A DNA stretch of 33,971 nucleotides, taken from the NCBI GenBank assembly GCA_018816525.1, contig JAHIVV010000032.1:1-33971 (forward strand). Direction: 5' to 3'. Numbering within the stretch: the first letter of the stretch is position 1; the number at the start of each line of letters is the position of its first letter. The notes under the pieces are model-generated. The model was not told where the DNA came from, did no database searches, and was given only the letters and a program-made list of their open reading frames with translations. Position numbers and translations under genes: made by a program. This document shows, in pieces, positions 1-4,151 of the stretch. This stretch comes from Elusimicrobiota bacterium (GTDB taxonomy: Bacteria; Elusimicrobiota; Endomicrobiia; CG1-02-37-114; XYA2-FULL-39-19).

Positions 1-202
1 CCTCTCCCGTAAATATTTTATAAATCGGTATTCTTTTTTCTTTGTTATCCAGCTGAAGGGCAAATTCGGCTTATCTTACTCATAATACCACGCCATATCC
101 ATTCTTTTATACTCACTTCTGCCAGAAGCATATGGTAATAAAATTTATTCGTAACTTTTTATTAAATTCAACACAAAAACAGTTATTTTCGCTTTCACCC
201 AT
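1..202 (-). pseudogene. Decayed small gene with intact expression signals
   Basis: An ATG at 200-202 has a strong AGGAGG site (209-214) six bases upstream and a consensus promoter (237-265). The frame opened by that ATG closes after 29 codons at 113-115 and looks unremarkable (begins MGESENNC). Past about position 140 the neighbouring frame becomes much more protein-like, with the stretches SEYKRMDMAWYYE and SWITKKKEYRFIKYLRER running to the window edge. That frame is interrupted by stops. I read this as a gene broken by at least one frameshift and a stop. A genuine 29-residue peptide is the alternative. I do not recognise the family. Confidence 0.35.
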
Positions 203-236
203 TGGATACCTCCTCTTTCCGTCGGTTATTGACTAT

Positions 237-265
237 ATTATAGACGATAAAAAGGGTTTTGTCAA
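237..265 (-). promoter_or_regulatory. Consensus sigma70 promoter
   Basis: On the minus strand TTGACA (260-265) and TATAAT (237-242) are separated by exactly 17 bases, a perfect match to the housekeeping consensus. It points at the small broken gene starting at 202. Its -35 hexamer lies next to the 3' end of the DUF6933-type gene. Confidence 0.75.
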
Positions 266-672
266 AATAAATATTCGGTTCCATTTGGAGAATACGGGTT
301 TAAATTAAGCGTATGATTTACCATAATCCCGGTTGCCCCGCGGTCTGAAGTATAAGAATATTTTATTTCCTGGCAATCGCTAAGTAAACGCTGGATGATT
401 ACATCATCAATTTTCTCGTCTTTTAATGTTTTCTCAAGCCATTTTCTGAATGTATCAGGGAGATTTCTAATTTCAGTAATCTTAACTTCATGGCAAATGA
501 GAGTAAAGAATGTGGTTTTATTCGTAAATATCAGGCATTTATGTCTGCCTATTTTGAATAAGTTGGCATACCACGCGCCCAGCAGAGAATTGTCATCAGT
601 TTCCCGAACAATCTGGTCCCTGGATATCCCCATTTCTTTCAAGAGTTTTTTTGTGCAGCAAAGATAGGTCAT
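262..672 (-). CDS. DUF6933-type hypothetical protein
   Basis: This 136-residue soluble protein starts LCCTKKLLKEMGI and has LGAWYANLFKIGRHKCLIF near residues 31-49, followed by a stretch ending in TTFFTLI. That pattern (RCT-K-LL at the N-terminus, then LGDWYANL and a basic/hydrophobic strand) is what I associate with DUF6933, a family of unknown function usually found as single small genes in accessory regions. There is no signal peptide or membrane segment. No good ribosome site precedes the ATG at 670-672. Its neighbours are a toxin-antitoxin pair and a decayed gene. The family assignment is from memory of motifs. No function is proposed. Confidence 0.6.
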   Translation of the reverse strand: MTYLCCTKKLLKEMGISRDQIVRETDDNSLLGAWYANLFKIGRHKCLIFTNKTTFFTLICHEVKITEIRNLPDTFRKWLEKTLKDEKIDDVIIQRLLSDCQEIKYSYTSDRGATGIMVNHTLNLNPYSPNGTEYLF

Positions 673-736: not shown

Positions 737-1156
737 TTATTTACTTAATAAATCAATTTCTTTTAAAAATTCACTTGCGTTTAGTATCTTGCAATTTTTA
801 ATTGTTTTAAGTTCAAGTAGATGTTTATCACCGCTGATAATAAATTGAGCTCCGCCTTCAATCGCGCAATCAACGAATTTTTCATCATCTGGGTCATTTT
901 TTAGTGTCTGATGTTTTACTTTTGGCTTAATAACGATGGCTTTTTCAGAATTAGAAAATAGTATCGTAATGTCTTCAATATCTTCTTCTGAAAGAGAAAA
1001 CCTGTTAAGTACTTCAAAGTATTCGTTAAGAATGTCCTGACTCACGACTAAAACAATATCGCCCTTGTCCCATAAGTCAATAATTTGGCGAGGTTTTCCA
1101 CCCCAAAGGCTTGATATTAAAATATTTGTATCGATGACAACCCTGATAGTTTTCAT
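737..1156 (-). CDS. PIN-domain toxin of a type II toxin-antitoxin pair
   Basis: This 139-residue PIN-fold ribonuclease resembles the COG1569 group of putative toxin components. Metal-binding acidic residues are visible: Asp9 in VVIDTNILIS, an acidic cluster in SEEDIEDI, and the C-terminal DPDDEKFVDCAIEGG and GDKHLL motifs. By family it would cleave RNA in the cytoplasm unless bound by its antitoxin. Its ATG (1154-1156) shares one base with the antitoxin stop codon (TAATG), so translation is probably coupled. No independent ribosome site is obvious. Length is normal and all key acidic residues are present, so the toxin looks intact. Confidence 0.88.
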   Translation of the reverse strand: MKTIRVVIDTNILISSLWGGKPRQIIDLWDKGDIVLVVSQDILNEYFEVLNRFSLSEEDIEDITILFSNSEKAIVIKPKVKHQTLKNDPDDEKFVDCAIEGGAQFIISGDKHLLELKTIKNCKILNASEFLKEIDLLSK

Positions 1157-1404
1157 TATTTCTTTAAGCGAACATCCTTAATCAGTTTATCAACATCTTG
1201 TAGGCCATATCCTGCCCGTTTTGCAGCTTCCCGGGTACGAGCCCATAAAGAGTTTATATTAACCGAAAATGCATCTTCGCTTAGTGTCCTAAGCAATGCA
1301 ATTGGGTGTCCTTTGCGCGTAATCACTACTGGGCCAAATTTATCACTGAGTTTTAAAACCCTATTAGTTTCTAGTTTGAGTTCACGGATGTTTGCAAATC
1401 TCAT
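1156..1404 (-). CDS. Phd/YefM-family antitoxin
   Basis: This 82-residue protein begins MRFANIRELK and contains FGPVVITRKGHPIALL, the typical Phd/YefM N-terminal DNA-binding and dimerisation fold. The C-terminal half (WARTREAAKRAGYGLQDVDKL) would be the toxin-binding tail. The ATG at 1402-1404 is preferred over a TTG twelve bases upstream because that TTG overlaps the GGAGG ribosome site (1411-1415). It is the first gene of a two-gene operon with the PIN toxin. It should neutralise the toxin and repress its own promoter through the palindrome at 1421-1442. Confidence 0.87.
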   Translation of the reverse strand: MRFANIRELKLETNRVLKLSDKFGPVVITRKGHPIALLRTLSEDAFSVNINSLWARTREAAKRAGYGLQDVDKLIKDVRLKK

Positions 1405-1420
1405 ATAATCCTCCAATTAG

Positions 1421-1982: not shown

Positions 1983-2558
1983 CTAAAATTTTAAAGCGAT
2001 ACCTGCTTTCGCGCCGCCACCGATTCCGCCAAAACCGACACCTTCTTTGATGTTAATCTTATGCCTTGAAACACCGTCAGGATAATATCCCCGGGTCTGT
2101 TCGCTTACCACAAAATCAGTGTTTCCTAATACTGTTATATTTAAACCGAAAAACCAAGACATGGAATCAGATAAATTATTTTTAATATCAGTTGTTATTT
2201 CAACCGCAGGCACAACGGTAGCAAGGGCAAGACTACTGCTATAATTCAATATCGTATCTCCCGTCTTGTCAGTACCCGAATCTCTCAGGTATGTGTCTGT
2301 TGAAGATGTTTTCCTGGATATATTTAACAAGTACGCGCCAAGCCCAAGCCCGAAACTAATTCCTGACTCGTTTTGATAATTAAACCTTCCAAGTACAGGT
2401 ACGGCAAGCACTGATATTTCTTCTTTATCCTGTCGTGTGACATCTGCGCTTAAATAGAAATAAGAACTGTCCCATATAATCCTGCCCGGGGGTGTCGGGC
2501 TTGAAGACGGAAGATTCCATTCTTTGGTAAAAGTTTCATAAGGCATTCCCATTCCCAC
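1983..2558 (-). pseudogene. 3' fragment of an outer-membrane beta-barrel protein gene
   Basis: The 191 visible residues alternate polar and hydrophobic residues with glycine-rich turns (SGISFGLGLGAYLLNI, GVGFGGIGGGAKAGIALKF) and end in a terminal phenylalanine, as barrel proteins recognised by BamA do. No signal peptide or true start exists. The frame simply runs upstream to a stop at 2595-2597, and the DNA changes character near 2559, where GC-rich sequence in the opposite coding sense begins. The gene therefore seems cut at its 5' end by a rearrangement or an assembly join. The barrel class is unknown, and the fold assignment rests on sequence texture only. Confidence 0.6.
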
Positions 2559-2830
2559 TACGATATCGGCAACAATTACTCCAAATACAGCGGCTCAACG
2601 TATATCACGTGGGCGCTGCCGGGAATTGTCAACGACTCCGTGTGGCTTAGGATGAAAGCCCGCGACTCGATGGGTCTCATAAGCAGTTACACGATTACAG
2701 GCCCGGTCGCGGTTTCGGAGCAGTTCTTCAGTTCCGCCCCGGTCCTGGTCATTAACAGCATCCAGGGCTCCTCCGGCACCGTGAGGGTCTATTACACCGC
2801 TTACGACGCAGACGGCGATTCCGTCAGTGG
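2559..2830 (+). pseudogene. GC-rich fragment of a large extracellular repeat-domain protein
   Basis: A plus-strand frame open through about 2559-2868 encodes a beta-sandwich-like segment: STYITWALPG, VNDSVWLRMKARDS, then APVLVINSIQGSSGTVRVYY and TAYDADGDSVSG. This resembles Fn3/PKD-like repeats of big secreted proteins, especially the strand pattern SGTVxVxYxxYDADGD. The DNA is far richer in G and C (roughly 60% by eye) than either flank. There is no start codon or ribosome site, and coherence is lost after about 2830, where another frame (TPR) takes over. It is an orphan piece of a gene that belongs elsewhere. Confidence 0.55.
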
Positions 2831-3210
2831 GACTGGGAGACTGCTATTACAATTTAAGAATGACCGGTAATGCTGTTAAAAATTATACAAAAAGCCTAGA
2901 GCTGAATCCGGATAATAAAAAGCTGAAAAAGTGGCTGGAACAGTTATTACAATCTGAAAAAGAAGAATCTCAGCCGAATATTGACACGGCTATACAGTTA
3001 ATGAATTTAAAAAAATACGATGAAGCAATATTAGAACTTAAAAAAGTGCTCAAAAACAATTCGAATAATGCAAGGGTTTATGAAGAATTGGGCAATTGCT
3101 ATTACAATCTGGATAAGAATAAAGAAGCTTTAGGATACTATAAAAAGAGTTTGGAGATTGACGGAAATAATAACAGGCTAAAAACGTGGCTGGAAAAGAT
3201 TGAAAAATAG
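2827..3210 (+). pseudogene. TPR protein, 5'-truncated
   Basis: About 125 residues contain tetratricopeptide units: GDCYYNLRMTGNAVKNYTKS with LELNPDN, then a second repeat with LKKYDEAILELKKVL and ELGNCYYNLDKNKEALGYYK. Both repeats end in a similar LKxWLExL segment. No start or ribosome site is seen. The apparent GTG at 2827 lies within the junction with the GC-rich fragment, so the first part of the gene is missing. TPRs bind other proteins, but the partner is unknown. The FKBP gene begins 86 bases downstream with its own ribosome site. Confidence 0.65.
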
Positions 3211-3221
3211 AATGTGTTGGA

Positions 3222-3250
3222 TTGAAAATTCTTTTACAATTTGATAGAGT
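3222..3250 (+). promoter_or_regulatory. Possible promoter of the FKBP gene
   Basis: TTGAAA (3222-3227) and TAGAGT (3245-3250) are separated by 17 bases. The -10 box matches only four of six consensus positions. The position, 46 bases before the ATG at 3297, is reasonable. Confidence 0.35.
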
Positions 3251-3296
3251 AATTGGCAACAAGAGTTTAAAAAAATTAGGCTGGAGGAGCAAAAAT

Positions 3297-4151
3297 ATGT
3301 TTAATAAATTAGTTGTTGTAACCACGTCGGTTTTATTGATGGGGCTGGGTACTTTGAATGCAGCTGATGCGAAAAAGAAAACACCTGAGGCTGTTACCGC
3401 TACAGCTTCACCAGCCGCCAATGACCTTCTTGAAACCCCAAAAGACAAAATCAGCTATACCATCGGCTGGGACATAGGAAATACCTTAAAAAAACAATAT
3501 ATAGATGTTGACACAAACATTCTCATAATGGGCATTGAAGGAGCAATTAATAATTACAAAAAACTGCTTTCTGATGAAGAGATGCAGCAGGTTATCGCAG
3601 GTTTGAGGGAAGAAATACAAACTAAGAGAGAGGAAGCTATGTCCAAGCAGAGTGAAATTAATAAAAAAGAGGGCGCAGCATTTCTCGCTAAAAATAAGTT
3701 GGATAAAGGAGTCAAAGTCCTGCCCAGCGGCTTACAATATAAAGTAATCGAAAATGGAAAAGGGCCGAAACCCAAATCCATAGATACAGTCAAGGTAAAC
3801 TATAGCGGAAAATTAATTGATGGAACAGAATTCGACAGTTCCTATAAACGCGGGGTTCCTGCAACCTTTCCTGTGACCGGCGTAATTCCCGGCTGGACCG
3901 AAGTCTTGCAACTGATGAAAGCCGGTTCTAAATGGCAGGTATTTATCCCGTCCAATCTTGCTTACGGTGAACGCGGAGCCGGTGAAACTATCGGGCCAGA
4001 TGCAACTCTGATTTTCACGGTAGAGCTTCTTGAAATACAAAAACCGGAAGATAAATCCGCTATACCTGGTGTGACCAGCGCGCCTTCGGCGCCTGCCAGC
4101 CCAAAAGTTATTCCGGCCCCCAAACCAGCTCCCCAAACTGAGAAAAAATAA
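3297..4151 (+). CDS. Exported FKBP-type peptidyl-prolyl cis-trans isomerase
   Basis: This 284-residue protein should speed proline isomerisation in the cell envelope, helping secreted or outer-membrane proteins fold. A signal peptide (MFNKLVVVTTSVLLMGLG, then LNAADA) is followed by an FKBP N-terminal helical dimerisation domain (SYTIGWDIGN onwards). The FKBP catalytic domain carries VNYSGKLIDGTEFDSS, FPVTGVIPGWTE and LAYGERGAG. The C-terminus is a proline/alanine/lysine tail. The layout is that of Mip/FkpA. The ATG at 3297 is chosen because GGAGG (3283-3287) precedes it and the signal peptide starts there. An upstream in-frame TTG at 3222 would spoil the signal peptide. The MFS gene follows ten bases later. 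Confidence 0.9.
   Translation: MFNKLVVVTTSVLLMGLGTLNAADAKKKTPEAVTATASPAANDLLETPKDKISYTIGWDIGNTLKKQYIDVDTNILIMGIEGAINNYKKLLSDEEMQQVIAGLREEIQTKREEAMSKQSEINKKEGAAFLAKNKLDKGVKVLPSGLQYKVIENGKGPKPKSIDTVKVNYSGKLIDGTEFDSSYKRGVPATFPVTGVIPGWTEVLQLMKAGSKWQVFIPSNLAYGERGAGETIGPDATLIFTVELLEIQKPEDKSAIPGVTSAPSAPASPKVIPAPKPAPQTEKK

Follow-up and report, generated by a model that had tools for sequence, protein, structure and literature searches.

A slice of about 275 bases (~2559-2834), foreign to its host by composition, lies between two partial genes in the genome of this Elusimicrobiota bacterium, and we give an even chance to the explanation that we consider best, a laboratory or assembly chimera (made in the library or by the assembly). 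The window (the whole stretch of DNA analysed) is the entire contig C32 of genome G000, 33,971 bases long, from a 1.6 Mb assembly of 93 contigs that is 98.55% complete. Three partial ORFs meet at the site, in three different frames or strands: an orphan ORF on the minus strand that ends at 1983 and has no evident beginning, the slice, whose frame is open on the plus strand (frame 2571, mod 3 = 0) and reaches a stop at 2868, and a TPR ORF in a different frame of the plus strand (2827, mod 3 = 1), which starts in the middle of a repeat and ends at 3210. The initial annotation had placed three partial ORFs here, with a G+C-rich slice in its own frame between two half-genes, and this description of the site is accurate. 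The features concerned are as follows.

1-293, minus strand: IS1380-family remnant with which the contig begins, some 1.17 kb having been lost from inside the element (matches to both ends of an element on contig C26 of G002, a genome of the same family)
262-672, minus strand: gene for a DUF6933 protein, lineage-own (PF22016, E 4.6e-32; 74% DNA identity over 302-672 to contig C1 of G002)
737-1156, minus strand: gene for a PIN-family toxin (TIGR00305, E 2.1e-18; PF13470, E 8.7e-23)
1156-1416, minus strand: gene for a Phd/YefM-like antitoxin (PF02604, E 0.0017, below its cut-off)
1983-2558, minus strand: 3' part of an orphan gene with host-like codon use, its 5' end probably missing (found in one of 340 genomes, its own; codon score)
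2547-2559, no strand: left arm of a 13-bp inverted repeat (12/13), at the left junction (sequence comparison of the arms)
2559-2834, plus strand: foreign slice of an extracellular repeat-protein gene (composition; similarity to a G037 protein)
2826-2838, no strand: right arm of the inverted repeat, at the right junction and overlapping the end of the slice (sequence comparison of the arms)
2833-3210, plus strand: 3' part of a TPR gene that has lost its 5' end and holds an internal duplication (relative in G001, Pfam, self-comparison)
3222-4151, plus strand: gene for an FKBP-type isomerase, the first of an FKBP, MFS and malic enzyme cluster (common to G001 and G002, not G003)

The slice is foreign to the host in its composition, as had been proposed initially. 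Its G+C content is 0.566, as against 0.391 in the sampled assembly, and of 17,776 overlapping windows as long as the slice, drawn from 20 assembly stretches and the rest of the window, none has a value as high (the maximum, 0.555, is near). GC3 separates the slice from the host better than G+C: it is 0.75 in the slice, whereas 2105 coding windows with half overlap, from 24 assembly stretches and the window, average 0.386 and go no higher than 0.648. Only two of these 2105 windows have a codon score as poor as that of the slice, and one of 1420 chunks lies as far from the mean in tetranucleotide composition. These comparisons thus had as their background the rest of the window and 20 to 24 stretches that make up 21-23% of the assembly. 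The orphan, DUF6933, PIN toxin, antitoxin, FKBP and MFS genes have a codon composition ordinary for the host (938 of the 2105 windows score as low as the orphan or lower). A native, G+C-rich type of gene was considered as the source of the slice and rejected, as the homologous gene in G037 is not G+C-rich (G+C 0.39, GC3 0.36). There is no decay in the slice or in either stub, and the stubs are open to their own stops. A GC3 above the sampled host maximum, together with the undecayed state of all three pieces, favours a chimera. The lack of decay or amelioration in the slice counts against the main alternative, a real and recent illegitimate recombination in which two sites of short homology took up a short piece of foreign DNA and the 5' parts of the host genes were deleted at the same time, leaving a non-functional scar; this reading is quite possible, if somewhat short of probable.

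The slice encodes YDIGNNYSKYSG...YTAYDADGDSVSGT on the plus strand; neither neighbour shares its frame, and it yields no product. Of 5000 shuffles with the same composition, 161 leave the frame open by chance, so its openness is in itself modest evidence of coding; that the slice is probably coding is supported by its similarity to the repeats of a 1459-aa protein of G037, a genome from another family of the class. A search of 340 genomes of the phylum (E ≤ 0.01) gave four matches: the slice itself, the G037 protein, which is a clear homologue (E 4.3e-9), and weak matches in G202 (E 0.004) and G215 (E 0.007). The origin from a large extracellular repeat protein, suggested in the initial annotation, is thereby borne out. 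In a protein search of the nearest relatives, the matches in G002 (E 0.024) and G003 (E 0.39) were weak at most, and with E allowed up to 1 there was no match in G001, in G004 or elsewhere in G000. A clear homologue in one genome of another family, with no relative in the rest of G000, speaks for a chimera. The G037 protein has Kelch blocks, other beta-type repeats and an FlgD-like C-terminus just under the Pfam cut-off, and local alignment with the slice gives 30-52% identity in the best five matches; its gene is A+T-rich, however, and the slice has no start or natural end. Aligned with the G037 repeats, whose boundaries were judged by eye, the slice begins about half-way in one repeat and ends a third into the next, and it therefore appears to be an interior piece rather than a domain with natural ends.

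The search for a donor covered several collections and did not find it. Two members of the phylum with contig G+C contents of 0.56 and 0.55 carry long repeat proteins weakly similar to the slice, and a profile search of 83 genomes of the order of G037 found G037 only. Pattern searches returned 105 and 55 stretches in genome_contigs and 19 and 46 in viral_contigs, none of which was confirmed, and one exact 24-base pattern had no occurrence in viral_contigs. The slice protein had no match among phages and plasmids; in the PDB it gave one chance-level match by sequence (E 2) and none by profile, and its best match in Pfam, NCBIfam and PHROGs was to a Hoc-like phage family (E 0.087). Its structure model is poor (mean pLDDT 48.5), and neither this model nor that of the orphan is given any weight.

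In G037 (L056 2876-7255, L060 1964-4585), the gene after that of the giant repeat protein encodes a UPF0164-type barrel with a CsgG-like domain fused to it, and the two proteins are possibly a secretion pair. An internal deletion within a single native operon, through which a repeat-protein gene and a barrel-TPR gene collapsed together, would match the G037 arrangement, as the repeat gene there precedes, on the same strand, a UPF0164/CsgG-type protein that looks TPR-like by eye after its barrel, and this order and strand equal those of slice and TPR gene here. Such a deletion is nevertheless highly improbable, given a GC3 of 0.75 in the slice but of 0.355 in the TPR stub and 0.36 in the G037 repeat gene, and given that Pfam finds no TPR in the UPF0164/CsgG-type protein of G037 (E up to 0.01).

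To judge by sequence matches, both arms of the site carry sequence of the host lineage. On the left, 1-140 (86%) and 139-293 (96%) match the two ends of one element on contig C26 of G002, the ORF of which is an IS1380 transposase (E 5.3e-113); both ends are kept in the window, an interior of about 1.17 kb is gone, and the join lies at a 2-bp overlap. This remnant, with both ends and no interior, is MITE-like, and a shorter remnant matching 183-304 (82%) is present on contig C100 of G003 (L066). The tetranucleotide composition of the left arm is ordinary, 17 of 138 chunks being equally far from the mean. An origin of the left arm in another organism was considered and rejected on the basis of its lineage-own sequence (302-672 and 139-293) and its ordinary composition. 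Just upstream of the genes for the Phd-like antitoxin and PIN toxin, 1421-1442 is a near-perfect palindrome with 10-base arms and a 2-base centre, likely a putative autoregulatory operator. The interval 1440-1900 has no ORF of 80 aa or more and matches, in scraps of 26-68 bp, unrelated places in G000-G002; one of these patch matches lies beside what appears by eye to be the tail of an hsdM-type gene in G001 (L073). The bin contains one other match to 1-2560 (35 bases at 1741-1775) and, in a DNA search at E up to 0.001, no stretch other than the site itself that shares the junction region. The presence, within the same 3 kb, of an internally deleted IS1380 remnant and of small scraps of other loci favours a real recombination.

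On the right, the order FKBP, MFS, malic enzyme is the same in the window, in G002 and in G001, and G003 has a different gene after FKBP. The FKBP gene itself is found at E up to 0.001 in four of 39 genomes (this genome and relatives), its own included. The ORF listing starts this gene at a TTG (3222); an ATG at 3297, preceded by GGAGG and followed by a signal-peptide-like start, seems the likelier initiation site. In G002, tyrS and FKBP are adjacent and divergent, with about 140 bases between them. The tyrS gene of G000 is found on contig C56, in a G002-like order (PMM, tyrS), and about 320 bases upstream of this gene the contig runs out in tandem repeats. Because tyrS is on C56 and this contig ends only about 320 bases beyond it, the DNA upstream of FKBP in G000 differs from that of G002 by an insertion or rearrangement. 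The tandem repeats at the C56 end (L095 4490-4627) are copies of a 'gccaccctatccggt'-like unit, a possible cause of the contig break, which we take to resemble the ends of IS21-type elements.

The site is, therefore, a synteny break relative to G002 with IS remnants, whatever the status of the slice, and this raises the chance of a real join and weighs against a chimera. The G002 order is not necessarily ancestral, however, since tyrS and FKBP are on different contigs in G003, and in G001 (79% complete) tyrS was not found and another ORF precedes FKBP. This uncertainty weakens the case for real recombination, as does the absence of the join in all three relatives bearing the FKBP gene (G001-G003). 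Besides the synteny break and the differing interval upstream of FKBP, that reading is favoured by arms that carry sequence of the host lineage, by the absence of further copies or overlapping stretches from the bin, and by the two joins that a chimera would need.

The initial annotation held that both flanking genes lack their 5' ends, and this stands for the TPR gene. Its TPR stretch contains one unit twice, at a spacing of 255 bp (85 aa), and its best relative among the five genomes searched is a 355-aa protein of the sister genome G001, with 42% and 58% identity over the two units. As TPR is confined to the C-terminus of this relative, the TPR gene of the window is beheaded, its 5' end lost. 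With the last 308 residues of the G001 barrel-plus-TPR protein as a query, nine matches were obtained in G000, all inside the TPR part, so that the search did not recover the missing 5' part, though a barrel that changes fast could go unnoticed in this way. For the minus-strand gene, loss of the 5' end is likely: no signal-peptide-like start is seen by eye, and the orphan matches only itself in 340 phylum genomes (E up to 0.01), which leaves no relative for comparison. It had been called a barrel, which the present searches do not confirm, with no match in Pfam, NCBIfam, PHROGs or PDB and an all-beta structure model of low confidence (mean pLDDT 39.3); it is perhaps a putative outer-membrane barrel.

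Each join carries one arm of an inverted repeat, TCCCATTCCCACT (2547-2559) and AGTGGGACTGGGA (2826-2838), complementary at 12 of 13 positions. GTGGGANTGGGA occurs four times in the 1.6 Mb assembly, two of these occurrences being the arms and the other two exact copies lying one each on contigs C4 and C5; the same pattern read backwards has no occurrence in the assembly. Equally good pairs numbered 36 in 19.8 million position-and-gap tests of a sample, which corresponds to 0.0007 expected around the joins, although these odds are perhaps ten times weaker because junction features were sought after the sequence had been seen. A 12-base test gave equally good results at 5 of 3000 places chosen at random and, when the junction segments were shuffled 3000 times, in 3 cases. 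The result is weaker when one mismatch is allowed, 5 of 100 shuffles of the window then holding the motif at least twice. A 12/13 inverted repeat at both junctions fits a real recombination, and it is an unexplained detail compatible with short-homology joining of either kind.

The position and rarity of the repeat also speak for a small cassette, mobile or invertible, with 13-bp inverted repeats at its ends, but the repeat was noticed post hoc, its arms can be read as ordinary Gly-rich coding sequence of both flanks, and the other exact copies of the motif are on two different contigs. There is no target-site duplication, as read from the sequence, the outer five bases (2542-2546 and 2839-2843) being different. 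If the IS remnant where the contig begins is set aside, Pfam finds no transposase or integrase in the eight proteins of the first 5.3 kb, and no further copies of an element were found, the slice being single-copy in the bin and the motif recurring only once each on C4 and C5. We consider such a cassette very unlikely. An in-frame invertible cassette was rejected, as inversion of the segment gives no in-frame fusion with either neighbour. A domain-shuffling element for bacterial surface proteins, namely a cassette devoid of its own transposase that would move a surface-protein repeat from one species to another and leave it between genes for outer-membrane proteins, would be more improbable still. 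The absence of target duplication and of transposase or integrase in the vicinity speaks for a chimera.

If the join is a chimera, a piece of the giant surface-protein gene of a co-occurring, G+C-richer organism would have ended up between two pieces of host DNA, where insertion sequences had already disrupted the site, and the true DNA between these pieces (the 5' parts of two divergently read genes) would have been left unassembled; the join would then be absent from the living chromosome. Inter-genome translocations are described as the commonest assembly error in the CAMI sets in a part of the metaMIC paper (PMC9661791), which also reports that MAGs are contaminated by chimeric assemblies. 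The site resembles such errors in having a piece of foreign composition beside host pieces, with genes cut at the joins, but differs from them in having two joins around one short piece and, to its left and right, sequence of the host lineage. By reasoning, a chimera with two junctions separated by about 275 bp would have had to pass coverage filters, and a second copy of the slice was not found in the bin (E up to 0.001 for DNA and up to 1 for protein), nor were the junction sequences found in any other stretch of it; these points count against a chimera. The classical repeat-bridged misjoin does not apply, since the slice is not a repeat of the bin, and the 'repeat-derived read' that had been proposed as a bridge is weakened accordingly, the bin search for multiple matches having returned the slice alone.

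A real event would be comparable to the double illegitimate recombination of natural transformation, in which heterologous DNA is integrated without long homology, as the slice may have been; the event itself is unobserved here. Loss of recipient DNA would fit such a process. The capture of foreign filler with deletion is generally regarded as rare, which counts against a real event. Double illegitimate recombination is presented as homology-independent integration in a section of PMC4437187, citing Hulter and Wackernagel 2008. The initial interpretation, with its choice between a chimera and a real recombination, is thus partly supported, and both alternatives remain live.

The gene calls for the orphan, the slice and the TPR stub should not, pending the reads, be relied on in arguing for a gene content, a fusion or horizontal transfer, and the site is mainly a quality note of little wider interest. 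If the join were real, the DNA upstream of the FKBP cluster would be a variable site at which IS remnants, a toxin-antitoxin pair and foreign scraps have gathered in this lineage.
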